A DNA stretch of 64,000 nucleotides from Mesorhizobium opportunistum WSM2075 (GTDB lineage Bacteria > Pseudomonadota > Alphaproteobacteria > Rhizobiales > Rhizobiaceae), in the NCBI RefSeq assembly GCF_000176035.2, contig NC_015675.1, positions 4,220,001 through 4,284,000 of the forward strand, given 5' to 3'. The position numbers were made by a program, and so were the translations under genes. The notes under the pieces are model-generated. The model made no database searches. It was not told the DNA's origin and saw only the letters and a list, made by a program, of their open reading frames with translations. Positions 39,208-56,108 of this stretch are shown piece by piece. How positions within the stretch are numbered: the first letter of the stretch is position 1; each line of letters opens with the position of its first letter.

Positions 39208-39284
39208 ATTTTTCTGCTCCGGCTGTGCGAGAAGGGTTGTCGGCAAATCGACAAGGTCGGACCCATCAGGCTAAACAGGACGCC

Positions 39285-40472
39285 ATGTTGACCATAGGCA
39301 AGCGCGACGCAAGCGGCACGACCGCCTCGGAGGCTGACCACCAGCCGCGCGTCGCTATCGGCGAGGAAGGTGGCGTTCTTGGCTGCGCCTTCTCCGGTGT
39401 CTGGACGACACGGACCGTGGCACTGATCGACGCGGACATGCGCAAGATCGAGAAACGAAGCGGTTTCAAGACTTTGGCCCTCGATCTTTCCAAGATCGAG
39501 AAGATCGACACCGCTGGCGCCTGGCTAATCGACCGGCTGGTCAGCGTCTTCGAGAAGAAGAACGTCGAGGTCCAGCTGCAGGGCCGGAGCGAGATCGCGT
39601 CCATCCTGCTCGATGCGGTGGGGGAGGCTGTCCGCCGCGAGCCCGAATCCGGACCGGCGCGGCCGCCCAACATCGTCCTTCGCGCCCTCGAAGCGGTTGG
39701 CCGGCGCGTCTATGAGATGCGCGACGATTTCCTTGCCTCGATGAATATCCTCGGCGCCACCATCCGCGGCGCGCAGATGAAGCTCGGCCGCGGCCATGCC
39801 GTCAATCCGGCGGCGATCTTCAACCAGATCGATCGCATGGGCGTCGGCGCCATACCGGTGGTGGTGCTGATGTCGGCCATCGTCGGCGCGATCGTCGCCC
39901 AGCAAGGCGCCTACCAGCTCAGCTATTTCGGCGCCGATATCTTCGTCGTCGACCTCGTCGGCGTGCTGATCCTACGCGAACTCGGCGTGCTGATGACGGC
40001 AATCATGATCGCCGGCCGTTCCGGCAGCGCGATCACCGCCGAGATCGGTTCGATGAAGATGCGCGAGGAGGTCGACGCGCTGAAGGTCATCGGCCTCAAC
40101 CCGATCGGCGTGCTGGTCTTTCCGCGCCTGGTTGCACTCGTGATCGCCTTGCCGTGCCTGACGATCATCGCCAATTTCGCGGCGCTCGGCGGCGGCATCG
40201 CCGCGGCCTGGCTCTACTCCGACATTCCGCCGGCCGCCTTCCTCGACCGGCTGCGCGTCGCCATCGATCTCAGCACCATTTTCGCCGGCCTGATCAAGGC
40301 ACCGTTCATGGCGATGATCATCGGCACGATTGCGTCCGTCGAGGGTATGAAGGTCGGCGGCAGCGCCGAATCGCTCGGCCAGCACGTGACGGCCTCGGTG
40401 GTGAAGTCGATTTTCGTCGTCATCATCCTCGACGGGCTTTTCGCCATGTTCTACGCAGCGATCGAGTTCTGA
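39285..40472 (+). CDS. mlaE: Mla-type ABC permease with STAS domain
   Basis: A 395-residue permease of the MlaE family, which moves phospholipid across the inner membrane for asymmetry maintenance. The N-terminal 120 residues form a STAS-like domain (LALDLSKIEKIDTAGAWLI), which in E. coli is a separate protein, MlaB. The membrane part holds the signature region around GSGSAITAEIGSMKMREEVDAL and about five helices. ATG 39285 was chosen because an upstream in-frame start gives an odd polar leader. It is the first gene of a four-gene operon; mlaF begins one base after its stop. Confidence 0.93.
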   Translation: MLTIGKRDASGTTASEADHQPRVAIGEEGGVLGCAFSGVWTTRTVALIDADMRKIEKRSGFKTLALDLSKIEKIDTAGAWLIDRLVSVFEKKNVEVQLQGRSEIASILLDAVGEAVRREPESGPARPPNIVLRALEAVGRRVYEMRDDFLASMNILGATIRGAQMKLGRGHAVNPAAIFNQIDRMGVGAIPVVVLMSAIVGAIVAQQGAYQLSYFGADIFVVDLVGVLILRELGVLMTAIMIAGRSGSAITAEIGSMKMREEVDALKVIGLNPIGVLVFPRLVALVIALPCLTIIANFAALGGGIAAAWLYSDIPPAAFLDRLRVAIDLSTIFAGLIKAPFMAMIIGTIASVEGMKVGGSAESLGQHVTASVVKSIFVVIILDGLFAMFYAAIEF

Positions 40473-40473
40473 C

Positions 40474-41283
40474 ATGGCTGAGGGTAATGGGCTCGCGATG
40501 AAGGAGCAGGACGAGGGCGACCTCGTGCTTTCGGTGCGCGACGTCACTGTCGCCATCGAGGACAAGCTGATCCTCGACAAACTCTCGCTCGACATCAAAC
40601 GCGGCGAGATCCTGGGTTTCGTCGGCGCTTCGGGCGCCGGCAAGTCGGTCCTCCTGCGGACCATTCTCGGGTTGATGCCCAAGCAATCGGGAACGATCAA
40701 GCTGTTCGGTGTCGACGTCGACAAGGCAAGCGATATCGAGCGGCTGCGCATCGACATGCGCCTTGGCGTGCTGTTCCAGCATGGCGCGCTGTTTTCGGCG
40801 CTGACCGTGCTGGAGAACGTGCAGGTGCCGATGCGCGAATATCTCGACCTGCCGAGAAAGCTGATGGATGAACTGGCATTGCTCAAGATCGAGCTGGTCG
40901 GCCTGCCGCCGGATGCGGCGCAGAAATTCCCCTCCGAACTCTCCGGCGGCATGATCAAGCGCGCCGCCCTGGCGCGCGCGCTGGCGCTCGACCCGGATAT
41001 CGTCTTTCTCGACGAGCCGACGTCCGGCCTCGATCCGATCAGCGCGGCCGAGTTCGACGAACTCGTCGTCAAGCTGCGCGACACCATGGACCTGACCGTC
41101 TATATGGTCACGCACGACCTCGACACGCTGTTTACCGCCTGCGACCACGTGGCGGTGCTCGGCAAGAAAAAGGTGCTCGTCGAAGGCAGCATCGACGACA
41201 TGCTGAAAAGCGAGGAACCGTGGGTGAAATCCTATTTCCGCGGAAAACGCGCCCGGCAACTTGATCTTGCGGCGCGCGCATAG
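40474..41283 (+). CDS. mlaF: Mla-type ABC ATPase
   Basis: A 269-residue ATPase that powers the MlaE permease. Walker A is GASGAGKSVLLRTIL near residue 51, the Q loop reads FQHGALFSALTV, the signature is LSGGMIKRAALARAL near residue 157, Walker B is DIVFLDEPTSGLDP, and the switch His is in VTHDLD. A second ATG (residue 9) is a possible start, but the near-zero spacing to mlaE favours 40474. It is followed after 14 bases by the MCE-domain gene. Confidence 0.94.
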   Translation: MAEGNGLAMKEQDEGDLVLSVRDVTVAIEDKLILDKLSLDIKRGEILGFVGASGAGKSVLLRTILGLMPKQSGTIKLFGVDVDKASDIERLRIDMRLGVLFQHGALFSALTVLENVQVPMREYLDLPRKLMDELALLKIELVGLPPDAAQKFPSELSGGMIKRAALARALALDPDIVFLDEPTSGLDPISAAEFDELVVKLRDTMDLTVYMVTHDLDTLFTACDHVAVLGKKKVLVEGSIDDMLKSEEPWVKSYFRGKRARQLDLAARA

Positions 41284-41297
41284 CCATAAGTGAAGCA

Positions 41298-42671
41298 ATG
41301 GAAACCAGAGCCAACTACGTCATTGTCGGGATTTTCACGCTGGTTGCGATCCTGGCGGCGTTCGGCTTCGTCTATTGGACGGCCGCGATCGGTGACAGGG
41401 GCGAGACGACGCTGCTGCGCGTGCGCATCCCGGGTTCGGCTTCCGGCCTCGGCCGCGGCAGCTTCGTGCTGTTCAACGGCGTCAAGGTCGGCGACGTCAA
41501 GCGTGTCTATATCGACGTCGACAATCCGACCGTCGCCATCGCCGACACCGAGATCGACCGGATGACGCCGATCACCAAGTCGACGCAGGCCGATATCGGC
41601 CTTGCCGGCCTCACCGGGCAGGCAAACATCGAGCTCAAGGGCGCCGATCCCAAGGAAGTGAAGCTGCTCGACCAGGCGGAAAAGGAAGGCAAGGTCGCCG
41701 AGATCGTCGCCAACCCATCCGCCGTGACCAATCTGTTGCAGACGGCGCAGAACATCTTCAACCGCGCCGACAAGGTGCTGAGCGAACTCGAAGGCTTCAC
41801 CAAGGATGTCCGCGGGCCGCTGACGCAGACCGTGAAGAATGTGCAGACATTCTCCGACGCACTGGCCAAGAATTCCGACGGCATCGACAAGTTCCTGTCC
41901 TCGGTCAGCGCGCTCTCCGACGAACTGAAGGGTGTGTCCGGCAAGCTCGACGGCACGCTGAAGGCGGCGGAAGGCCTGCTCAATGCCGTCGACAAGGACA
42001 AGATCAAGAGCATCGTGGCCAACGTCGACACGGTAACCGCGAACCTCAAGCAAACCTCACAACAGCTCGACGGCGTCATCAAGAATGTCGACACGGCGGT
42101 CGGGTCCGTCAACGACTTCGCCAAGCAGACGCAGGGCACGCTGGCCAAGGTCGACGGCGTGCTCGACGGCATCGACCCGGCGCAGGTGCGCACGGCGCTG
42201 GCCAACATCCAGAAGGCCAGCGAAAACGCCAACAAGGCCGCCGCCGATATCGCCGTCGTGACCAACAAGTTCGCCAACCGGGCCGACGACATCGACCAGA
42301 CGATCAAGGATGCAAAGCAATTGGCACGACGGCTCAACGATGCCTCGGTGCGTGTCGACGGTATCCTCGCCAGGGTCGACAAATTGCTCGGCTCCGGCCA
42401 GGCGGATGGTGTGATGGCCGACGCAAGGGCGACGCTGAAATCCTTCAAGCAGGTCGCCGACACGCTGAATGCGCGGCTTGGCGTCATCACCGACAATCTG
42501 GCGCGGTTCTCGGGCCAAGGCCTGACAAATGTCGAGGCGCTGGTGCAGGACAGCCGCCGATCGATCAACCGCATAGAGGAAGCGGTGACGGATCTCAGCC
42601 GCAATCCGCAGCGTATCCTTTCGGGTGGCGACGGCGAGGTTCGGCAATTCGATGGCAGGGCGCGGCGTTGA
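41298..42671 (+). CDS. mlaD: MCE-domain lipid-binding protein, MlaD type
   Basis: A 457-residue MlaD/MCE protein that hands lipid to and from the MlaFE transporter in the periplasm. One N-terminal membrane helix (VGIFTLVAILAAFGFVYW) anchors it, the MCE beta-barrel follows (residues 40-115; GSASGLGRGSFVLFNGVKVGDV), and the remaining 330 residues are a long amphipathic helical region rich in Asn, Thr and Lys with weak internal repeats (TAEQ-like LDGVIKNVDTAVGSV). That is longer than E. coli MlaD, as usual in rhizobia. A GTG-start lipoprotein gene follows. Confidence 0.93.
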   Translation: METRANYVIVGIFTLVAILAAFGFVYWTAAIGDRGETTLLRVRIPGSASGLGRGSFVLFNGVKVGDVKRVYIDVDNPTVAIADTEIDRMTPITKSTQADIGLAGLTGQANIELKGADPKEVKLLDQAEKEGKVAEIVANPSAVTNLLQTAQNIFNRADKVLSELEGFTKDVRGPLTQTVKNVQTFSDALAKNSDGIDKFLSSVSALSDELKGVSGKLDGTLKAAEGLLNAVDKDKIKSIVANVDTVTANLKQTSQQLDGVIKNVDTAVGSVNDFAKQTQGTLAKVDGVLDGIDPAQVRTALANIQKASENANKAAADIAVVTNKFANRADDIDQTIKDAKQLARRLNDASVRVDGILARVDKLLGSGQADGVMADARATLKSFKQVADTLNARLGVITDNLARFSGQGLTNVEALVQDSRRSINRIEEAVTDLSRNPQRILSGGDGEVRQFDGRARR

Positions 42672-42750
42672 CTTCGGCGTCGGCTCGCCCCAGAAACATG
42701 AGCTGCAAAAGCGGGTTGATCTTACGATCCGGGGACAACGGGGATCGCGC

Positions 42751-43359
42751 GTGAAGTCTGTGTGGGTGAGAACGGGCGGGTTGACGTCGGCTGCGGCACT
42801 GCTTGTCCTGACGCTGGCGGGCTGCGCGGCGTTAGGCGGCAAGCCTGCGCCGCTCGACACTTTTGAGCTGTCTGCGCCTTCGGTCGACGCGCATGGCCAT
42901 AGCAGCAAGCAGATCCTGATCGCCCAGCCTTCGGCGCTCAAGGCGCTGGACAGCCAGAACATCGTCATCAAACCCTCCGACCGCTCGATCCAGTATCTCA
43001 AGGGCGCGCAATGGGCCGATCGCCTGCCGCTGATCGTGCAGGCGCGGCTGGCCGAGACGTTCCAGCGCTCGGGCAGCTTTGCCGGTGTCGGCAAGCCGGG
43101 CGAGGGTCTGGCGATCGACTACCAGGTCATCGTCGAGGTCCGGTCCTTCGAAGTGCGCGTCGACGGTGGCGAACACGCCGAGGTCGACCTGTTCGTGCGC
43201 TTGCTCAACGACCGCAATGGCGAGGTGCGAGCCTCCAAGAGCTTCAACGCATCCGCACCCGTTTCGGGCAAAGGCAACTCCGCTTATGTCGGTGCGCTCG
43301 ACAATGCGTTCGGCGATGCCGCCAGGCAGATCGTTCGCTGGACGGATTCGGTGATCTGA
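42751..43359 (+). CDS. ABC transport auxiliary lipoprotein (PqiC-like)
   Basis: A 202-residue lipoprotein of the ABC-type transport auxiliary (PqiC/YmbA-like) family that works with MCE transporters. The start is most likely GTG 42751: it gives a clean lipoprotein signal peptide with lipobox LAGC at residue 23. The mature part has the family pattern DSQNIVIKPSDRSIQYLKGAQWADRLP and ends in a helical DNAFGDAARQIVRW. An ATG further upstream inside mlaD would bury the signal peptide. It closes the mla operon and probably anchors the transporter at the outer membrane. Confidence 0.85.
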   Translation: MKSVWVRTGGLTSAAALLVLTLAGCAALGGKPAPLDTFELSAPSVDAHGHSSKQILIAQPSALKALDSQNIVIKPSDRSIQYLKGAQWADRLPLIVQARLAETFQRSGSFAGVGKPGEGLAIDYQVIVEVRSFEVRVDGGEHAEVDLFVRLLNDRNGEVRASKSFNASAPVSGKGNSAYVGALDNAFGDAARQIVRWTDSVI

Positions 43360-43399: not shown

Positions 43400-44020
43400 C
43401 TACAGGCGCTCGAAGACATCCGGCCGCAGCTTTCCGGTCAGCATCAGATGCTGCAGCGTGTAGGCCAAGGACAGCGCATCGTCGAGCGCCTCATGCCCAT
43501 GCAATGGCGGGTGCTCGACGCCATAGTAGTCCGCGAGCTTGTTGCTCGGCGTCCTCGCCAGGTCCTCGATCGGCATCCCGGCCGCGATCAGCAGCTTGAC
43601 GGCATTGTCAAACCGGGTGGCCGGGATCGAAGGCTGAATGCCCGCGATATAGCAGCTGATGGCGATCATGTTCAGTTCGTCCTTGCCCCAGGACCAGAAC
43701 CGCGCGCCACCGGAAAAACGATCGACGTTGGCGAGGGCTTCTCCCAGCGCGACCCCTTCGGTCTCGACGTCCTTCTCGGTGATGCCGGTCAGTTTGGTGA
43801 AGAACGGGTCGAGGGCGTATCTTTGACCAAACCGGTCGACCGGTCTGATATAGGCCTTGTGCGTGCCGAGCAGCGGAAAGTCGTCCTCGAGCCCAAGCTT
43901 GATCGCGCCGATCTGCGCGATGACCGGGTCGGGATCGTGGGCCGCGCACCAGAATCGGCGTTGCGAGCCCTCAAGGCAAAGAAACTCGCAGTCGAATATG
44001 ATTGCCGTCTTCACGATCAC
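43400..44020 (-). CDS. DEDD-type 3'-5' exonuclease
   Basis: A 206-residue exonuclease of the DnaQ-like superfamily. The acidic pair is in IIFDCEFL at residues 8-15, another Asp lies in FWSWGKDELN, and the last motif is HEALDDAL near residue 177 in the HxxxxD form of DEDDh enzymes. Family members remove nucleotides from DNA or RNA 3' ends; the substrate here is unknown. It stands alone between the mla operon and the GPR gene, and a strong palindrome lies upstream. Confidence 0.85.
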   Translation of the reverse strand: MIVKTAIIFDCEFLCLEGSQRRFWCAAHDPDPVIAQIGAIKLGLEDDFPLLGTHKAYIRPVDRFGQRYALDPFFTKLTGITEKDVETEGVALGEALANVDRFSGGARFWSWGKDELNMIAISCYIAGIQPSIPATRFDNAVKLLIAAGMPIEDLARTPSNKLADYYGVEHPPLHGHEALDDALSLAYTLQHLMLTGKLRPDVFERL

Positions 44021-44203: not shown

Positions 44204-47200
44204 TTAGTGCAGCCGGCCGCTGGCGTGGGCCAGCATTGTGTAGACCTTGCCGGTGTCCGACGTCAGGTAGGTCTGCGCCATGATGTTATCGCGGTCGTTG
44301 CGCGAGACATCCTTGAGCAGTTTTTCGAAGTCGTCGCAGTAGCGGTCGACGGCGGCACGGAATTCGGCCTCGGCCTGGTACTTGCGGCGGATCTCGTCGA
44401 ACGTCTGCTGGCCCTTCAGCGTGTAGAGCCGACGCGTGAACACGTCCCGCTCGCCGCGCCGATAGCGGTTCCACAATTCGATCGAGGCATCGTGGTCGAT
44501 GGCCCGTGCGATATCGACGGAGAGCGAGTTCAGCGATTCCACGACATGTAGCGGCGAGCGCTGGGCAGGGGCCGCGCGTGGTGCTTCCGCGGGCGCGGAA
44601 GGCGCCGTGGGCCTGAGGTCTCCTTCGTTCGATGCCGCGGTCAAGAGATCGCGTACCCAGCCGCCCTGCGGCGTGCGGGTATTGGCGTCAGCGCGAGGGC
44701 GCGGTGCCGCCTCGGCCGGACGATCGAGGTCGAGCGTGCCACGCAGCGCGGTGCCACCCAGCGGCGCCTGAGGCGTGCGCAGCTCCGGTTGCGGCGCCGG
44801 GGCACGACGCGGCGGCTCAGCCGGCCGTGCCGCCGGTGCTTGCGGCGCCGGGCGCAAGGGGCGTTGCTCCGAACCATCGCCGCCGCCACGACCGGACTTG
44901 GCAACGATATCCGAGAGCTCCTTCAGGGCGTTGATCTGCTCCGAAACGGCGCGGCGAATGGCGGAGGTCGATTCCTTTGCCTCTTCCGGCATCTCGATGA
45001 CGCCCTTCTTGAGCTCGGCGCGGGTGAGGTCGAGCTCGCTCTTGATCGAGCCCGCCGTGCGCCGCATCTCCTCGGTCGCATCGGCGAAGCGCTTGGTGGC
45101 CGAATCGACGACGTCGGTGATGGCGTTGCGGATCTTGTCGGCCGACTCCATCGTCTTGCCTTCGGCGTTCTGCAGCGTCTGGCCGACCAGGTTTTCGAAC
45201 GAGCGCATGACCCTTTCGAGATCTTCCGACTTCTTGACCAGGCCGACCGCGAGATCCTCGAGCGACGACTGTCTTTCGAGCGTGTGTTCGAGGTTGCTCT
45301 GGGCCGAACTCAACAGGTCCGAGGCGCTGGCCAGCAGACGGCTGTGTTCGTCGAACTTGGTGGCGATCGAGGCGACTTCACGCAAGGTCGACGAGGACAG
45401 GTCCGTCAGCCTTGTCGTGTTCGAATCGACCAGCCGCGCCGAGCTGGCAAAGGTCTGTGCCGCCTTTTCAGTGGTGGCCGCGAAGCTCTGCGTGCTGCCG
45501 GTCAGGCGTTCGTCGACCTCGCCGAGATTGACCGCGGCCTGCTCGATCAGCTGGCCAAGCTGCGAGCTGGACTTGGTCATGCGGCCGATGAGGTCAGCGA
45601 CGCTGTCGGACAGCGACGAGCGCGCGCCTTCGACCGCCGACAAGGTCTCGGCGGTGCGGCTGGCGAGCGCGTTGACAAGGGCTGCATTCTCGCTGCGCAG
45701 CTTCTCGGTGGCGCGTTCCGTGACCTCTTCCATGCTCTTTTGCAGCTCCGAGCCGCCCTGGGCGAAACGCTCGACCAATGGGCGGGCGGTTTCGTCGAGG
45801 ATCTTCGACATCTCGGCGGAGCGCGCCGCGAGCATGGTGTTGAGCTCACGGGTATTGGCGCCGATCGTCTTGGCGGCGTCGTTGGTGCTCTGGCCGATAT
45901 GCTGGCCGACCGCCGTGAAGGTCTCGGCGATCACATTGGCGCGTGACACCAGTTGTGCCTCGGCGCTCGAGACCTGCTCGTTGAGCCTCTGGCCCATCGT
46001 CTCGGCGGTGTAGGCGAGCCGGTTCTCGACGTTGGCGACCTGCTCCTCGACACGGGCGGCTGCAGCCGCCGCGCTCGATGCGAGACGCTCGTCGGCGCCG
46101 GCAAGCGCCTGCTCGATTTCGCGGGCATGCACGGCCAGTTCCTGGCCGGTCTGCCGCGCACGATCGGCGACCCTCTGCTCGGTGTTGGCGAAGGCGCCGA
46201 CGATGGTCTGCGCGTGCTCGCCGATCGTCGACGTGCTGTCGGCGATGCGCGAAACCAGGCGTTGGTCTGCCTCTTCGAAGATGCGGCCGATCTCGGAAGC
46301 GCGGTTGGACAGCGCGTCCGAACCTTCCGCGATGCGCGACACCAATTGCTGGTCGGCGGCATCGAAGATGCGGCCGAGGTCCGATGCGCGGGCAGCGAGC
46401 GCCTCGGCCGATTCGCCGATGCGCACGCCGAGCCGCTGGTCGGCGCTTTCGAAGTTGCGCAGGATGTCGCCGGCGCGGGCGGCCAGCGACTGTGCCGTCT
46501 CGACGGCGCGGGCGACAAGCTTCTGGTCGGCCGCGTCGAAAGTGCCGGCGATCTCGTTGGCGCGGGCGGAGAGCTGATCGGCGGTCTCCTGAGCGCGAGC
46601 GGCAAGCTTCTGGTCGGCCATGTCGAAGGTTCCGGCGATCTCGCTGGCACGGGCAGCCAGTTGGTCGGCGGTTTCGTGGGCGCGGGCCAGCAGCGTGCTG
46701 GAAGTATCGTCCGCCCGGGCAAGCAAGGCGTTCGAAGTGTCTTCGGCACGGGCATGGAGACGACGATCCGCATCCTCGAAGGTACGGGCGATGTCTTCGG
46801 CCCGCGCCAGCAATGCGGCGGACGTCTGCTCGGCGCGCTCGGCGATCTTGCGATCGGCGTCGCTGAACGCCGCACCCGCCTGCTCATGCAGCGCGCTGGT
46901 GACTTCAAGGACCTTTTCGCGCAAAGCGCCGGCGACGAAGACGGCGCTCTTTTCGAGCACGTTGCGGACGTTGTCGACGCCGGTCGAGAGCGCGCGTTCC
47001 ATGGTGCCTGCGCGTTCCTCGATGATCCCGGTCTGGCGACTGAACGCCTCTTCGATCTTTTCCACGTCGGCCGCGATCGCGGTGGAAATGTCGGTGCTCC
47101 TGGCCGCGATCTGATCGATGTGGCCAGACAGCGAGCGGTCAACGTCCTTGCGGGTCTCAGCGAGCTTGCCGAGATCCTCTTCCAGCGCGCGGCTCAGCAT

Positions 47201-50200
47201 GTCGCGGCCTTCGGCCAGCTTGCCGACATGGCCGGCGATGATGCCGTCGATGTCGCCTCGGCTTTCGGTCAGCTTCTGCAGGTCGGCTTCGAGCGCGCGC
47301 TTGAGAATGTCGCGGCCCTCGGCCAGCTTCTCCACCTGGCCGGCAACCAGGCCGTCGATGCTGGAGCGGCTTTCGGCGAGCTTGGCAAGATCGGCTTCGA
47401 GCGCGCGCTTGAGAACGTCGCGGCCTTCGGCCAGCTTCTCCACCTGGCCGGCGACCAGACCGTCGATGCTGGAGCGGCTTTCGGCCAGCTTGGCAAGGTC
47501 GTCCTCGAGTGCCCTGGACAGGGTCGAACGCTCCTGGACAAGCCTGTCCGCGTGGCTGTTGACAAGGGTGTTGACGCCTTCGAGGTCGTCCTCCAGCGCC
47601 TTCGACAGCGTCGAACGATCCTGGACGAGCCGTTCGGAATGGCTGTTGACAAGGCTGTTGACGCTTTCGAGATCGGCTTCGAGTGCCCTGGCGAATTGCG
47701 CACGGTCATCGACCAGCTTCTGCGACTGGTCGGCGACGGTGTTCTTGATGGTGTTGAGGTCGGCTTCCAGGGCGCGCCGCAGGATGTCGCGGCCTTCCGA
47801 CAGCTTCTCGACCTGACCGGCGACCAGACCGTCGATGCTGGAGCGGCTTTCGGCCAGCTTGGCAAGGTCGTCCTCGAGAGCCTTCGACAGGGTCGAACGA
47901 TCCTGAACGAGCCTGTTCATGTGGTCGGCGATGACGCTGTTCACATTCTGCAGGTCGGCTTCCAGGACCCGCGAAAGCTGTCCACGGTCCTCGGCCAGTT
48001 TCTCCGACTGGCTGGATATGACGCCTTTGATGGTGTTGAGGTCCGACTCCAGCGCCCGCTTGAGGATGTCGCGGCCTTCGGCCAGCTTCTCGACCTGGCC
48101 GGCGACCAAGCCGTCGATGCTCGAGCGGCTCTCGGCCAGCTTGGCAAGGTCGGCTTCGAGCGTCTGCGACAGCAGGCTGCGGTCGTTGGAGAGCCGTCCC
48201 GAATGATCTTCGATCAGGTTCCTTATGCCCGAAAGGTCGTCCTCGAGCGAACGGCCGAGCAGGCTGCGGTCTTCGGCCAGCTTTGCCGAGTGCGACTCGA
48301 TGAGGCTCTTGATGCCGGCGATGTCGCTTTCCAACGCCCTGGCGAGAACGGCGCGGCCCTCGGCGATCTTCTCCACCTGGCCGGCGACGAGGCCATCGAT
48401 GTCGGCGCGGCTGTCGGACAGTTTGCCGAGATCGGCCTCAAGGGCACGCGACAGGATGTTGCGGCCTTCAGCCAGTTTCCCGACATGTCCGGCAACCATT
48501 TCATCAATGATCGTACGAGCTTGCACGAGCTTCCCGGAGTCTTCGTTGAGAGCCAGGGAGAGCCGGTTGCGGCCTTCCTCCAGCCTTTCGAGATGGCTGC
48601 CGAGCGATGCATCGATGGCAGCGCGCGATTCGTTGACCTTGCGCAGATCCTCTTCGAGGGCACGCGCGATCAGGCTGCGGCCTTCGGCCAGCTTCTGCAC
48701 CTGGTTGGTCACCGCGGCATCGATGCCGGCACGGCTCTCGTCGAATTTCGCCAGGTCCGCCTCCATGGCGGCCGCCATACGCTCACGGCTTTCGGACAGC
48801 TTGCGGCTGTGGTTCTCGACGGCTTCCTCGATGCCGACGCGGGCATCGGAAAGGCGCTGGATGTCGGAATCGAACGAACGCGAGACGACATGACGCGCCG
48901 CTTCCATGCGTCCGGCAAAGTCGCTGGCGCGAGCCTCCAGCATGGTCGATGTCGAGTTGACGATGTCGGCCATGTCGGCGCCGATCTGGGTCTTGCCCTG
49001 ATCGATCATCGCGGACAACGTATCCTTGCTTTCGGCGAAGGTGTGGGCGATTTCGCGGGCGCGTTCGACCAGTGTCTCATTGATCTGGCGGGCGCGGGCC
49101 TCGAGCGCCGCGTTGAGCTTCTGCGTGCCGGTGTCGAGCGCCTCGGCGCGGGTCTGGAATTCACTGATCAGCGCCTGGCCGCGTTCGGCCAGCGTGCGCT
49201 CGATGCCGTTGAGGCTGGCTTCGAATTCCGAATTGAGGGTGCGGGCGGCGCCGCCAAGCAGCGACACCATGCCGGTGGTGCGATCGTCGAGCAGGTCGGT
49301 CAGCGACCGGGTCAGGCCGTCCGTCGTGTCCGTCAATTTTGCGATGCGGGTGTCGAGCAGGGAGGCGAAGGCCTCGCCGGAGGTCGACAGCCTGTCGGTG
49401 ATGGTGTCGAGGCGGCCTTCGACCGAATCGAAGATCGACATCGAGCTTTCATTGATGCGGTCGATCAGCGTGTCACCGGAATTCGTGATCGTCATCGACA
49501 GCTTGGTCGACGCGTTGAGGATCGAGTCGCGGATGATGTCGCTGGCGGCGCCGATTTCCTCCTTGAGCGTTTCATGCGCGCCCGAAATCGAGGCGCGGAC
49601 GCGCTCCGCATGGGTGACGACTGCCTCGCGCTCGCTGCCGAGCCCGTCGACGAGCGAGCGGATGCGGGTTTCGTTTTCCGAATAGGAGCGCTCGATCTGG
49701 TTGACCTCGCTATGGACCAGCGTTTCCAGTTCCACGGCGCGGGCGAGCGTGCGTTCGATGCCTTCGCCCATGGCCGCGACCTCGCGGCGAACGGCTTGGC
49801 CGATCATCATGACGCGATCCTGGGCGAGGTTTTCTGGCTCGGTCAGGCGGAAAGCTACTTCGGTCATCGACTGGGCGGCAATGCGCATGTCCTGGGCGCG
49901 ACGGATCATCGCCGCGAAGGCCCAGAACAGGATCACCGGCACGATCGCCGCGACGGCGAGGCCGATCAGCTCGGGACGAGCAAAGAACTGGTCGAGCGTG
50001 CGGATCCGCCAGATGCTCGGTCCGAAAAGCAGGTTGGCCAATCCGCCGGCGCCCGCGATCCAGGCGAGCGAGACAAAGGCAATGACCCAATAGACGGTGT
50101 TGGAGGCGCGCCGGTTGAGGCTGTGCAGGAGTGTCTTGTAATCCTTCTGGCGATCGTCATTGGCCGGGGCGAAGCCCGTCGCCTGTGTGCCGAAGCCTGT

Positions 50201-50497
50201 CGCCTGTGTGCCATTGCCATTGCGCGTCTCAACGGGGCGCAGTTCGGCGGGTTTGGCTTTTGGCGCGGGCTTGGCGGGCTGGGCCTGACTGACGGTGGGC
50301 TCCGACTTCTGGTTGCGTCCCTCTCGTGCCAATTCATCGGCGGCCTGGGATATCTGGGCTTCCAGATCTTCCATCGAAGCTGCGATATCGAGATCGCCGT
50401 CAGTGTCGCTGCTGAGGTCGATATCGAGCGCTTTTTCCAGTTCCCTGGCTACATCGTTGTCGAGAGTTCTCGTCGTCGTCGTTGGTTTCTTCGCCAT
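44204..50497 (-). CDS. gpr: Growth pole ring protein GPR homologue
   Basis: A 2097-residue protein matching Agrobacterium GPR (2115 residues), a ring-forming scaffold for polar growth. An N-terminal Pro/Glu-rich part (1-130) is followed by two membrane helices (133-158 and 176-198), placing the bulk in the cytoplasm. Then comes about 1,650 residues of continuous helix with regular repeats: eighteen 36- or 29-residue units (545-1143) and a second 29-residue array (1217-1470). A Pro-rich stretch (1868-1980) and a conserved 117-residue C-terminal domain (1981-2097) close it. There is no enzymatic motif. ATG 50497 is chosen because the conserved part (MAKKPTTTTRT) begins there; upstream codons look like untranslated leader. 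The Hpt gene is divergent. Confidence 0.92.
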   Translation of the reverse strand: MAKKPTTTTRTLDNDVARELEKALDIDLSSDTDGDLDIAASMEDLEAQISQAADELAREGRNQKSEPTVSQAQPAKPAPKAKPAELRPVETRNGNGTQATGFGTQATGFAPANDDRQKDYKTLLHSLNRRASNTVYWVIAFVSLAWIAGAGGLANLLFGPSIWRIRTLDQFFARPELIGLAVAAIVPVILFWAFAAMIRRAQDMRIAAQSMTEVAFRLTEPENLAQDRVMMIGQAVRREVAAMGEGIERTLARAVELETLVHSEVNQIERSYSENETRIRSLVDGLGSEREAVVTHAERVRASISGAHETLKEEIGAASDIIRDSILNASTKLSMTITNSGDTLIDRINESSMSIFDSVEGRLDTITDRLSTSGEAFASLLDTRIAKLTDTTDGLTRSLTDLLDDRTTGMVSLLGGAARTLNSEFEASLNGIERTLAERGQALISEFQTRAEALDTGTQKLNAALEARARQINETLVERAREIAHTFAESKDTLSAMIDQGKTQIGADMADIVNSTSTMLEARASDFAGRMEAARHVVSRSFDSDIQRLSDARVGIEEAVENHSRKLSESRERMAAAMEADLAKFDESRAGIDAAVTNQVQKLAEGRSLIARALEEDLRKVNESRAAIDASLGSHLERLEEGRNRLSLALNEDSGKLVQARTIIDEMVAGHVGKLAEGRNILSRALEADLGKLSDSRADIDGLVAGQVEKIAEGRAVLARALESDIAGIKSLIESHSAKLAEDRSLLGRSLEDDLSGIRNLIEDHSGRLSNDRSLLSQTLEADLAKLAESRSSIDGLVAGQVEKLAEGRDILKRALESDLNTIKGVISSQSEKLAEDRGQLSRVLEADLQNVNSVIADHMNRLVQDRSTLSKALEDDLAKLAESRSSIDGLVAGQVEKLSEGRDILRRALEADLNTIKNTVADQSQKLVDDRAQFARALEADLESVNSLVNSHSERLVQDRSTLSKALEDDLEGVNTLVNSHADRLVQERSTLSRALEDDLAKLAESRSSIDGLVAGQVEKLAEGRDVLKRALEADLAKLAESRSSIDGLVAGQVEKLAEGRDILKRALEADLQKLTESRGDIDGIIAGHVGKLAEGRDMLSRALEEDLGKLAETRKDVDRSLSGHIDQIAARSTDISTAIAADVEKIEEAFSRQTGIIEERAGTMERALSTGVDNVRNVLEKSAVFVAGALREKVLEVTSALHEQAGAAFSDADRKIAERAEQTSAALLARAEDIARTFEDADRRLHARAEDTSNALLARADDTSSTLLARAHETADQLAARASEIAGTFDMADQKLAARAQETADQLSARANEIAGTFDAADQKLVARAVETAQSLAARAGDILRNFESADQRLGVRIGESAEALAARASDLGRIFDAADQQLVSRIAEGSDALSNRASEIGRIFEEADQRLVSRIADSTSTIGEHAQTIVGAFANTEQRVADRARQTGQELAVHAREIEQALAGADERLASSAAAAAARVEEQVANVENRLAYTAETMGQRLNEQVSSAEAQLVSRANVIAETFTAVGQHIGQSTNDAAKTIGANTRELNTMLAARSAEMSKILDETARPLVERFAQGGSELQKSMEEVTERATEKLRSENAALVNALASRTAETLSAVEGARSSLSDSVADLIGRMTKSSSQLGQLIEQAAVNLGEVDERLTGSTQSFAATTEKAAQTFASSARLVDSNTTRLTDLSSSTLREVASIATKFDEHSRLLASASDLLSSAQSNLEHTLERQSSLEDLAVGLVKKSEDLERVMRSFENLVGQTLQNAEGKTMESADKIRNAITDVVDSATKRFADATEEMRRTAGSIKSELDLTRAELKKGVIEMPEEAKESTSAIRRAVSEQINALKELSDIVAKSGRGGGDGSEQRPLRPAPQAPAARPAEPPRRAPAPQPELRTPQAPLGGTALRGTLDLDRPAEAAPRPRADANTRTPQGGWVRDLLTAASNEGDLRPTAPSAPAEAPRAAPAQRSPLHVVESLNSLSVDIARAIDHDASIELWNRYRRGERDVFTRRLYTLKGQQTFDEIRRKYQAEAEFRAAVDRYCDDFEKLLKDVSRNDRDNIMAQTYLTSDTGKVYTMLAHASGRLH
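46088..46849 (-). repeat. 29-residue repeat array in GPR
   Basis: Residues 1217-1470 read as eight consecutive units of 29 residues of the type KLxARAxETAxxLxARAxEIAxxFxxADQ, except that the second unit carries a 22-residue insert. Each unit is one long amphipathic helix segment with the ADQ/ADR end acting as boundary. Confidence 0.8.
47069..48865 (-). repeat. 36/29-residue repeat array in GPR
   Basis: Residues 545-1143 read as eighteen back-to-back units. Eleven are 36 residues (DLAKLAESRSSIDGLVAGQV, then EKLAEGRDILKRALEA) and seven are 29 (DLNTIKGVISSQSEKLAEDR, then GQLSRVLEA). The order is 36x5, 29x2, 36, 29x2, 36, 29x3, 36x4. The short form lacks exactly seven residues. Confidence 0.85.
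47285..47500 (-). repeat. 108-bp tandem direct repeat
   Basis: Two adjacent 108-base units (47285-47392 and 47393-47500) differ at only about six positions by eye, and encode 36-residue units that differ by one residue (ILKRALEA / VLKRALEA). The other units of the array are more diverged in DNA, so this pair looks like a recent unequal duplication. Confidence 0.75.
50171..50212 (-). repeat. 21-bp tandem repeat in GPR N-terminus
   Basis: Two 21-base units that differ at one base encode GTQATGF twice (residues 96-109), within the disordered N-terminal region just before the first membrane helix. Confidence 0.7.
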
Positions 50498-50770
50498 GCC
50501 TTCGCTACCCTGTACTAGCTGCCGCGGGCTTATAATTGTCTTTGTCGTACCCCCGCGCAGGAGGCTGAAAATGGACCCCTCGTATCGTAATGACACAGGG
50601 GGGTAAAGAAAACATGCATTCCGTGGGATACGTAAAACTTTAAATATAAGGTTAACAGAAGCGTGATTCCGGTGCCGCTTTCGCAACATTTTTCCGGGCC
50701 ACTCATTAACCCGTTGTCCACTGGATGCGCCTAGTTTTTCAGGCGACCGAAGAAAACGGAGTTCGAGTTC
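50498..50770. promoter_or_regulatory. Divergent GPR / Hpt promoter region
   Basis: 273 bases shared by two divergent genes. It contains TAAA-N7-TTAAC at 50641-50656 (also readable as TTAA-N8-TTAA), close to the alphaproteobacterial CtrA consensus TTAA-N7-TTAAC. A lone TTAACC half site lies at 50706-50711. The area around 50631-50656 is unusually AT-rich. No other gene is present. Confidence 0.4.
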
Positions 50771-51139
50771 ATGCGTGGCGAAAGCGGCATTGCCTTCTCA
50801 ATGCCCGGGGGCGACGTATCGGGAACGAGGCAGTCCCGGCCGGTCGATTTGGCACACCTTGCCCGGCAAACGATGGGCGATCGCGCCCTCGAGCAAGAGG
50901 TGCTGGCGCTCTTTGTACAGCAGGCGCTATCTGTGCGCGACAAAATAGTCGACGCCGACGTCAAGGGCCGGCTTCTGCTGGCGCATGGGCTGAAAGGCTC
51001 GGCGCGCGGCGTCGGCGCCTTCGCCATCGCCGATTGCGCCACCGAAATCGAGCGTCGTCCGGAGGACGGTCAGACACTCAAACGGCTTGGCACGCTGATC
51101 GACGAAGTGCGCGATTTCATCGCCGCAATCAATCGCTGA
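50771..51139 (+). CDS. Hpt domain phosphotransfer protein
   Basis: A 122-residue stand-alone histidine phosphotransfer protein. The phosphoacceptor is in AHGLKGSARGVGA (His near residue 74), the usual HxxKG(S/A) pattern inside a four-helix bundle. Such proteins relay phosphate between hybrid kinases and response regulators; neither partner is encoded nearby. ACGGAG lies about ten bases before ATG 50771. It shares its promoter region with GPR, so a cell-cycle or polarity role is possible but is an inference. Confidence 0.85.
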   Translation: MRGESGIAFSMPGGDVSGTRQSRPVDLAHLARQTMGDRALEQEVLALFVQQALSVRDKIVDADVKGRLLLAHGLKGSARGVGAFAIADCATEIERRPEDGQTLKRLGTLIDEVRDFIAAINR

Positions 51140-51236: not shown

Positions 51237-52671
<1,435 letters not shown>

Positions 52672-54386: not shown

Positions 54387-55010
54387 TCAGGCCGGCGGTC
54401 GCAATTGGCCACTCTCGATGCGCTCGATGCGATAGCGCAGGAGCCGCAGGATGCGGCTTTCGAAATTGACGCTCTCGACGCGGTCGAACTGCACCTGGGC
54501 GCGGTCGTGCTCGGCGAGGACGGTGGCGGTGATTTGGGCCGCCTTGGCCTTTGCCGCATCGCAATCCTTCCGCGGATAGGTCGCCTTCAGCGCCTCTTCC
54601 AGCTTGCGGGCATGGTTCTTGGCAATCTCGACATGGCGCTCCTCATGGCGCTTGATGTCGGCCGACAGCGTGTCCCAGAACAGCTTCACGTCGGCGTCCG
54701 CGTTGCGGGGGCGGCGCCATTCCGGAAGGATCACCTTGACCTTGACGGTCACGGCGGCGTCGGCGATCCGGCAGGAACCTGCCTGCCGGGCGTAGCTGAT
54801 GCGGGTGGTGAAGGCCATCTGGGTGGCGCCGGGGTGACGGGAACCAGTGCTCTTGACCTGTGGCCCGTGTTTGGAAAGCTGCGTCTCGATATCGTCGAGG
54901 GTGCTGCCGCCGATGGAAAAATAGCTGTATGTCTTCACGAGACTGGCCGCGCCCGCCGGGATGGCGGTCATGGCAAGCAGCAGTGCGCAGAGCAGGGATC
55001 GTTTCATCAT
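54387..55010 (-). CDS. DUF922 family zinc protease-like protein
   Basis: A 207-residue exported protein of the DUF922 family. A signal peptide (cleavage likely after AGAA) is followed by the family domain, with the zinc-protease motif HEERH in DIKRHEERHVEIAKNHA near residue 120. The second ATG (55007) directly follows the first, and either may be used. The physiological substrate is unknown. Its upstream region holds a dispersed hairpin repeat. Confidence 0.85.
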   Translation of the reverse strand: MMKRSLLCALLLAMTAIPAGAASLVKTYSYFSIGGSTLDDIETQLSKHGPQVKSTGSRHPGATQMAFTTRISYARQAGSCRIADAAVTVKVKVILPEWRRPRNADADVKLFWDTLSADIKRHEERHVEIAKNHARKLEEALKATYPRKDCDAAKAKAAQITATVLAEHDRAQVQFDRVESVNFESRILRLLRYRIERIESGQLRPPA

Positions 55011-55093
55011 GTTGCCTCTTCGAGCACCTTGCTTTACGGCCGTTGCCGGCGCAACGGAATTGATCCGATGCGGATCACACATCGTTGATGAGC

Positions 55094-55223: not shown

Positions 55224-56108
55224 ATGACGGCGAGGCGATGGCAACTGGCCCATGGACGCCATCTCGACCTTGGCGAAAGAGCCGTGGTTGCCGGCATCCT
55301 CAACGTCACCCCTGACAGCTTTTCCGACGGCGGCCTGTTTAGTGGGATCGAGACGGCGCTGGCCCAGGCACGCCGCATGATCGCCGAAGGGGCGGGGATT
55401 GTCGATGTCGGGGGAGAATCGACCCGGCCCGGCGCTGGCGCGGTATCGGCCGGGGAGGAACAGGCGCGCGTCCTGCCTGTAATCGAGGCGCTGGCGAGCG
55501 CCGGCGACGTGCTGATTTCCGTCGATACCTATCGTGCCGAAACCGCGCGCCTTGCGGTGGCTGCCGGCGCGCACATCGTCAACGATGTCTGGGGCTTGCA
55601 GCGCGAACCTGACATTGCGCGCATCGCGGCTGAAACCGGTGCCGGGCTCATCATCATGCATACCGGGCGGGATCGCGAGAAGCTGCCCGACGTCATTGCC
55701 GACCAGTTGGCTTTCCTGGGAAAATCGCTGGAGATCGCCCGCGGGCACGGTGTCGCCGACGACCATATCGTGCTCGACCCCGGTTTCGGCTTCGCCAAGG
55801 AGACGGCGGAGGAAAACCTCGACCTGATGGCGCGGTTCTCCGAGCTTCATGGGCTCGGCTTTCCGCTGATGGCCGGCACCTCGCGAAAGCGCTTCATCGG
55901 CACCGTCACCGGCCGCGATGCGGCCGACCGCGCCGCCGGAACGGCGGCGACCAGCGTCATTCTCAGGCTCAAGGGCGCGCATCTGTTTCGCGTCCACGAT
56001 GTCGCAATCAACGTGGACGCACTGGCCATGGCGGATGCTATGCTGGCACGTGAAACCGCCGCATCGGCCCGAAAATCGGGATCGATTTTCGGAAAGCACG
56101 ATGCGTAG
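55224..56108 (+). CDS. folP: Dihydropteroate synthase
   Basis: A 294-residue TIM-barrel enzyme joining p-aminobenzoate to the pterin diphosphate, the sulfonamide target. Signatures are GILNVTPDSFSDGG near residue 25, VDVGGESTRPGA near residue 61, VNDVWG, LDPGFGFAK and the C-terminal GTSRKRFIG. The last dozen residues (ARKSGSIFGKHDA) are coded by a dispersed repeat that runs through the stop, so the tail is not native FolP sequence. folB starts 73 bases later. Confidence 0.96.
   Translation: MTARRWQLAHGRHLDLGERAVVAGILNVTPDSFSDGGLFSGIETALAQARRMIAEGAGIVDVGGESTRPGAGAVSAGEEQARVLPVIEALASAGDVLISVDTYRAETARLAVAAGAHIVNDVWGLQREPDIARIAAETGAGLIIMHTGRDREKLPDVIADQLAFLGKSLEIARGHGVADDHIVLDPGFGFAKETAEENLDLMARFSELHGLGFPLMAGTSRKRFIGTVTGRDAADRAAGTAATSVILRLKGAHLFRVHDVAINVDALAMADAMLARETAASARKSGSIFGKHDA

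Follow-up and report, generated by a model that had tools for sequence, protein, structure and literature searches.

The window analysed here, a stretch of 64,000 nucleotides of Mesorhizobium opportunistum WSM2075, carries on its minus strand a gene that we identify, with a probability of roughly 0.9, as the Mesorhizobium orthologue of GPR/RgsE, a scaffold of the growing pole that can be read as a lengthened new-pole landmark of the TipN type. Such an orthologue is to be expected here; the wider-family view is the interesting part. A preliminary description had correctly given the coordinates 44204..50497 and the length of 2097 residues, leaving the strand unstated. The gene runs from an ATG at 50497 to a stop at 44204–44206. 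A second in-frame ATG lies at 50689 and the frame is open upstream; near relatives, however, share the MA-K-K start at 50497. The gene and the parts of its product are as follows.

44204..50497, minus strand: GPR/RgsE orthologue as identified here, complete coding sequence, 2097 aa
50087..50497, minus strand: N-terminal tail, residues 1–137, predicted cytoplasmic (orientation by analogy with RgsE PhoA fusions, PMC7327166)
50030..50086, minus strand: membrane helix 1, residues 138–156 (hydropathy)
49904..49960, minus strand: membrane helix 2, residues 180–198 (hydropathy)
44906..49903, minus strand: proline-poor rod, residues about 199–1864 (hydrophobic period 3.635; repeat shifts of 29, 36, 94, 18 and 11 residues)
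46242..48106, minus strand: tandem DNA arrays within the rod (periods of 87, 108 and 369 bp, and overlapping rows)
44564..44905, minus strand: proline-rich linker, residues 1865–1978
44207..44563, minus strand: C-terminal domain, residues 1979–2097, predicted to fold into seven helices; related to the C-terminus of TipN

The two N-terminal membrane helices and the long core described beforehand are both recovered, the former by hydropathy and the latter as the proline-poor rod; just four prolines (residues 221, 1573, 1837 and 1880) occur between residues 192 and 1880. The description of proline-rich ends holds for the N-terminus (6.2% proline in residues 1–130) and for residues 1860–1985 (17.5%); the extreme C-terminus is not such an end, since the last 115 residues hold no proline. 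The internal repetition of the rod is above chance: its best self-identity, at a 29-residue shift, is 20.8%, while 50 shuffles reach at most 11.2%. Rod length differs among near relatives, as the protein measures 2014–2495 aa wherever both ends could be read (69 of the 80 close loci fetched). A 1521-codon open frame antisense to the rod (window 45953–50518, plus strand) is probably a by-product of the G+C-rich repeats. In a Pfam scan, the 2097-aa protein matched PF01442 (apolipoprotein) over seven stretches with 77.7 bits, below the curated cut-off of 90, along with two weaker matches, and the sole NCBIfam match was a weak one to PspA. Neither scan placed an enzyme family over its cut-off, in agreement with the earlier statement that enzyme motifs are absent. 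PF28217, which is among the precomputed domains of many homologues and is absent from the Pfam scan output here, may cover part of the family.

The nearest genomes fetched were those of Mesorhizobium, and the comparison that carries the identification was made with a 2089-aa gene of Sinorhizobium meliloti (strain Ak57), taken as RgsE on its length, which equals that of the published protein, and on its sequence; its record names it 'kinesin'. Over the full length the two align with 30% identity (600 bits), a value that includes a repetitive rod that is not reliably alignable. The C-terminal 116 residues are 81.9% identical and the N-terminal 300 residues align closely, so that, with S. meliloti RgsE as a stand-in for Agrobacterium GPR, a match is found in the conserved regions at both ends. 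Published work puts RgsE at 42% identity to its A. tumefaciens homologue GPR (PMC7327166). The gene is single-copy in the 6.88-Mb single-contig genome, its locus is syntenic with the S. meliloti rgsE locus (YcjX, YcjF, folK, folB, folP, DUF922, 2Fe-2S, Hpt), and the genome gives no match to MreB (PF06723) at E 1e-30 or at E 1e-20; together with the two conserved ends, these observations support the GPR family identity proposed in the preliminary description. The genome also gives a TolQ match over the cut-off and a match to DUF2497, which we take to be the PopZ family.

In size the protein lies in the range of the two studied proteins (2,089 and 2,115 aa). RgsE of S. meliloti (SMc00190) shares with it the N-terminal helix region, rod, proline-rich linker, C-terminal domain and gene order, but has different rod repeats and scores 257.8 bits against PF01442, compared to 77.7 bits for the Mesorhizobium protein. 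GPR of A. tumefaciens (Atu1348, WP_010971556.1, 2115 aa) is, by its published description, similar in size, topology, helical core and proline-rich region before the C-end; it is there that a ring has been seen (PMC8262873). That the gene encodes a generic long coiled-coil protein of the SMC, kinesin or PspA kind, GPR-like in architecture alone, is highly improbable. The 'kinesin' annotation of the S. meliloti homologue and the weak PspA match would favour it; against it stand an identity of about 82% to the S. meliloti protein in the C-terminal domain, which is not repetitive, the close alignment of the first 300 residues, and the synteny of the locus. The kinesin, SMC and PspA labels were rejected as noise on helical rods. 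The S. meliloti record CP090106.1 bears the label plasmid pSymB, yet it includes rgsE, folP and genes for cytochrome bc1, and may therefore be a mislabelled chromosome.

The likely function of the GPR/RgsE orthologue follows from its studied relatives. RgsE is found at the new pole in S. meliloti (PMC7327166) and B. abortus. Its interaction partners include TolQ and RgsA, as well as RgsS with a weaker interaction (PMC7327166), which makes the earlier remark that the partners are largely unknown outdated. In S. meliloti, RgsE depletion causes a strong shape defect and RgsE excess causes branching in one medium, and the protein is important, yet not indispensable (PMC7327166). GPR forms a six-focus ring of 200 nm at the growth pole of A. 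tumefaciens; its loss delocalises peptidoglycan synthesis and rounds the cells, and its excess gives multiple growth poles (PMC8262873). By analogy, we infer that the Mesorhizobium protein acts as its relatives do and that the gene would be central to growth in this organism, as the preliminary description had it. The protein would be an inner-membrane-anchored cytoplasmic scaffold of the growing pole; the parts predicted from its sequence are the pair of membrane helices, a rod some 1,670 residues long with a regular hydrophobic stripe, a proline-rich linker and a seven-helix head. The rod may self-associate or lie along the membrane and the C-terminal head may bind partners; as in the relatives, assembly would take place at the new pole with Tol-Pal (TolQ) and the Rgs proteins, and peptidoglycan synthesis would be confined to that pole.

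Residues 1961–2097 match 682 proteins at E ≤0.001, and 44 of about 110 positions of the C-terminal domain are invariant in 11 chosen sequences. AlphaFold2 (30 rows) predicts this end, which had been singled out for structure prediction, to be folded into seven helices (mean pLDDT 86.7, pTM 0.81); no confident solved relative was returned by fold or by sequence search. In A. tumefaciens, GPR lacking 10 C-terminal residues is impaired in function, that lacking 221 residues shows the strongest failure to complement, and that lacking 332 residues retains paired foci and more function than the 221-residue truncation (PMC8262873). Since paired foci persist in the largest truncation, the C-end is dispensable for ring assembly, though important for function. 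A fluorescent fusion at the C-terminus disturbs GPR (PMC8262873). The domain, with no solved relative found, and the conserved Hpt neighbour described below are concrete targets.

The domain profile finds 149 of 387 alphaproteobacterial genomes in the class sample (E 0.01), and the domain was found in 146 of 149 genomes of the order Rhizobiales (E 0.001). Open frames at the listed class matches range from 330 to 2752 aa. Among 40 fetched open frames, 28 have two N-terminal membrane helices, 8 have one and 4 have none (own cut-off). An 880-kb Sphingomonas parapaucimobilis record in the plasmid collection (NZ_CP155749.1) also encodes a C-domain protein, annotated hypothetical (37.5% over 96% of the query).

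The gene is flanked by the following features.

50771..51139, plus strand: Hpt-domain protein, 122 aa, divergent neighbour (PF01627, 31.8 bits, cut-off 24.6)
51237..51557, plus strand: 2Fe-2S ferredoxin-type protein, adjoining the Hpt gene (PF00111)
39225..40472, plus strand: MlaE-type permease, first gene of a convergent cluster
40474..41283, plus strand: ABC ATPase of the Mla-type cluster
41298..42671, plus strand: MlaD-type protein
42625..43359, plus strand: ABC-transport auxiliary lipoprotein (PF03886)
54387..55082, minus strand: DUF922 protein, syntenic with the S. meliloti rgsE locus
55224..56108, plus strand: pterin-binding enzyme (folP), syntenic with the S. meliloti rgsE locus

The Hpt protein carries an H-x-LKG motif. 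Between the Mla-type genes and the GPR gene, a 206-aa frame (window 43400–44020, minus strand) gives a partial exonuclease (RNase_T) match of 31.4 bits. Gene neighbourhoods were compared at 32 loci, five of the order and 27 outside it; six of the 32 seeded the neighbour profiles, having first been found by BLAST with the genes of the window and of S. meliloti. A divergent Hpt gene lies 5' at 14 of the 32 loci (5/5 in the order, 9/27 outside), and also at the S. meliloti, Shinella, M. ciceri and Aminobacter loci. The Mla ATPase and MlaD genes are 3' and convergent at 11 of 32 (2/5 in the order and the same 9/27 outside); a 26-bit Hpt match (L158) and lone or weak Mla matches (L165, L184, L185, L194) were left out of these counts. 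The nine outside loci with both neighbours come from five families (f5, f6, f11, f107 and the Pyruvatibacter-like f105), all nine in MreB-bearing genomes. These relatives resemble the Mesorhizobium gene in both ends, the divergent Hpt gene and the convergent Mla-type genes, and differ from it in their open frames of 685–1030 aa; they look like positional orthologues with short rods. Both the Hpt and the Mla neighbours are missing at three TipN loci (f55) and at 15 other outside loci. We infer a role for the Hpt neighbour, possibly as a phosphorelay link to the pole.

The Mla-type genes bear on another explanation, in which the protein is an apolipoprotein-type lipid handler at the growth pole, with the Mla-type neighbours as partners, and not a scaffold for wall synthesis. 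Its PF01442 stretches, shared with S. meliloti RgsE, the weak PDB matches to human apoA-IV (best E = 0.0038), the hydrophobic period near 11/3 and the 11 loci with convergent Mla genes all point this way, and a lipid role has been argued in PMC8262873. However, an amphipathic repeat can yield such PF01442 matches, and the Mesorhizobium protein stays below the family cut-off, sharing with human apolipoprotein A-IV (PF01442) an amphipathic near-11-residue periodicity at the level of a weak match. The Mla genes are convergent, with no co-transcription; S. meliloti and three of the five other loci of the order either lack them or have them displaced or inverted. We therefore regard the lipid handler as unlikely when set in place of the scaffold, although the two are not mutually exclusive.

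The link from the growing-pole scaffold to TipN was reached by a search from the Pyruvatibacter-like member, which gave a protein named TipN. Among the best 120 of 1200 matches to that protein, 16 were named TipN, and the 13 of these not marked partial were tested. A profile built from GPR-type sequences only matched all 13 at the extreme C-terminus with 13.5–24.5 bits, whereas none of 2613 decoys, shuffled or reversed, scored above 4.6 bits. Some of the TipN scores are marginal, with domain E-values reaching 3.5 when a database of a million is assumed. A broader profile, made from the genes fetched, gave 28.9–41.4 bits (decoys 4.2). In profile–profile comparison, GPR and TipN matched with 97.6% both at the C-ends (E 3.3e-12, 109 columns) and at the N-ends, which comprise the helix pair and the region after it (E 4.6e-12, 133 columns), against 0.1–1.3% for exchanged or reversed controls. 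The model of the TipN C-end (pLDDT 88.9, pTM 0.83), compared with that of GPR as helix lists without superposition of the models, has seven main helices of similar spacing and two short extra ones. With Caulobacter TipN as a single query, 38 of 387 genomes were found at E 1e-6, mostly through the same genes as with the GPR profile; three Caulobacteraceae-like genomes (f55, 37–42% identity) were found by this query and missed by the GPR profile.

An unrooted tree of both ends with 38 rows, 17 of whose 35 inner branches are weak, has one branch (99/98) that sets ten rows of the order, seven TipN rows and six syntenic short rows apart from 15 others; in the TipN row L177 just one helix was recognised. 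None of the six neighbour families was found at any of the three f55 loci, two of which (L176 and L177) reach only about 3.7 kb on the 3' side. With the Hpt and Mla neighbours missing there, the basis of the TipN link is the pair of ends together with the tree.

TipN of the Caulobacteraceae has, like GPR, an N-terminal helix pair, a helical rod, a Pro/Ala-rich linker (seen in P0150) and a related helical domain at its extreme C-end. It is reported to interact with ParA and to mark the new pole and the septum. The literature further gives it, as it does RgsE, a Tol-Pal partner (PMC7403779, citing earlier work), and it reports ectopic poles on TipN excess (PMC5347347, citing earlier work). It differs in length (783–894 aa in the 13 tested), in rod period (3.575–3.615 in 115 TipN-like proteins), in the presence of MreB in 3/3 f55 genomes, and in that no Hpt or Mla neighbours were found. 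TipN moves to the septum (PMC7403779), whereas RgsE was not seen there (PMC7327166); for GPR the sources differ, with absence from the septum in PMC7327166 and location at midcell before division in PMC8262873. The related ends, matching predicted helices, shared Tol-Pal partner and similar excess phenotype suggest that GPR and TipN are one family. TipN and the short relatives from genomes with MreB have both ends too, so the best reading of GPR is a new-pole landmark of the TipN type that has been lengthened.

TipN has been called specific to Caulobacter crescentus (PMC4460556), and most alphaproteobacterial genomes have been said not to encode it (PMC5182065). A 2026 paper describes TipN as 'analogous' to GPR, both with disordered N and C termini (PMC13170164); for the C termini, the predicted folds of our C-end models do not bear this out. 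In the accessible, mostly open-access literature we found no statement of homology between GPR and TipN at both ends, the texts giving 'similarity' or 'analogous'; the word TipN is absent from the main text of the RgsE paper (PMC7327166), and no text naming TipN with RgsE was found.

Homology at both ends also raises the alternative that the protein in Mesorhizobium is mainly a polarity landmark, serving chromosome and division polarity as TipN does, with wall growth affected secondarily. This seems quite improbable, because A. tumefaciens cells without GPR become round and their peptidoglycan synthesis is delocalised (PMC8262873), and because S. meliloti cells depleted of RgsE are strongly misshapen (PMC7327166). 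For the growth-scaffold reading, a joint evolutionary account, to which we give about even odds, would derive GPR and TipN from one class-wide landmark of the new pole that had two paired membrane helices and, at its C-terminus, a head of seven helices. Repeat expansion in the Rhizobiales line would have stretched the rod and moved its stripe toward the 11-residue type; this stretching, in a group most of which has lost MreB, would have turned the landmark into an elongation scaffold, and the conserved divergent Hpt protein would feed a phosphorelay signal to the pole. Polar growth is what GPR is known for, whereas TipN is known for polarity; a single family makes the shift from landmark to organiser of unipolar growth testable.

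MreB is present in 363 of the 387 genomes of the class sample, with no match in any of the six genomes of the same order; in the denser order sample, 131 of 149 genomes lack a match. Frames of at least 1500 aa occur there in none of the 18 MreB-bearing and in 92 of the 128 MreB-less genomes with the gene, and the median frames are 1062.5 and 1855 aa, respectively, fragments below 600 aa being kept in (2 MreB-bearing, 7 MreB-less). Rod length thus correlates with the absence of MreB, and no cause is claimed. MreB loss as the cause was set aside: on a tree of 53 chosen rows, with the S. meliloti row scored MreB-less from the literature, there were six independent pairs, and too few of them (1–2) were informative, although every one of these agreed with the expectation (median p 0.5). 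In addition, frames are short in some MreB-less families, f178 and f180 among them, and long rods with MreB occur outside the order (f32, f59).

The rod period is 3.620–3.655 in 120 GPR-like proteins, 3.620–3.635 at 69 close loci and 3.555–3.615 in 34 genes outside the order, a set that includes the ill-fitting frame L148 and from which L150 was dropped, its rod being too short. It thus separates the GPR-like from the TipN-like proteins sampled. As a mark of polar growth the period was nevertheless rejected, since inside the order it changes gradually with the length of the rod, and MreB status gave no separation (p = 0.12) in 40 chosen genes. These comprise 16 of the 18 MreB-bearing genes (the 476- and 452-aa frames were left out) and 24 of the 128 MreB-less ones, a non-random choice with many short ones picked. 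In this set, frames shorter than 1500 aa have periods of 3.595–3.645, and longer frames 3.645–3.655.
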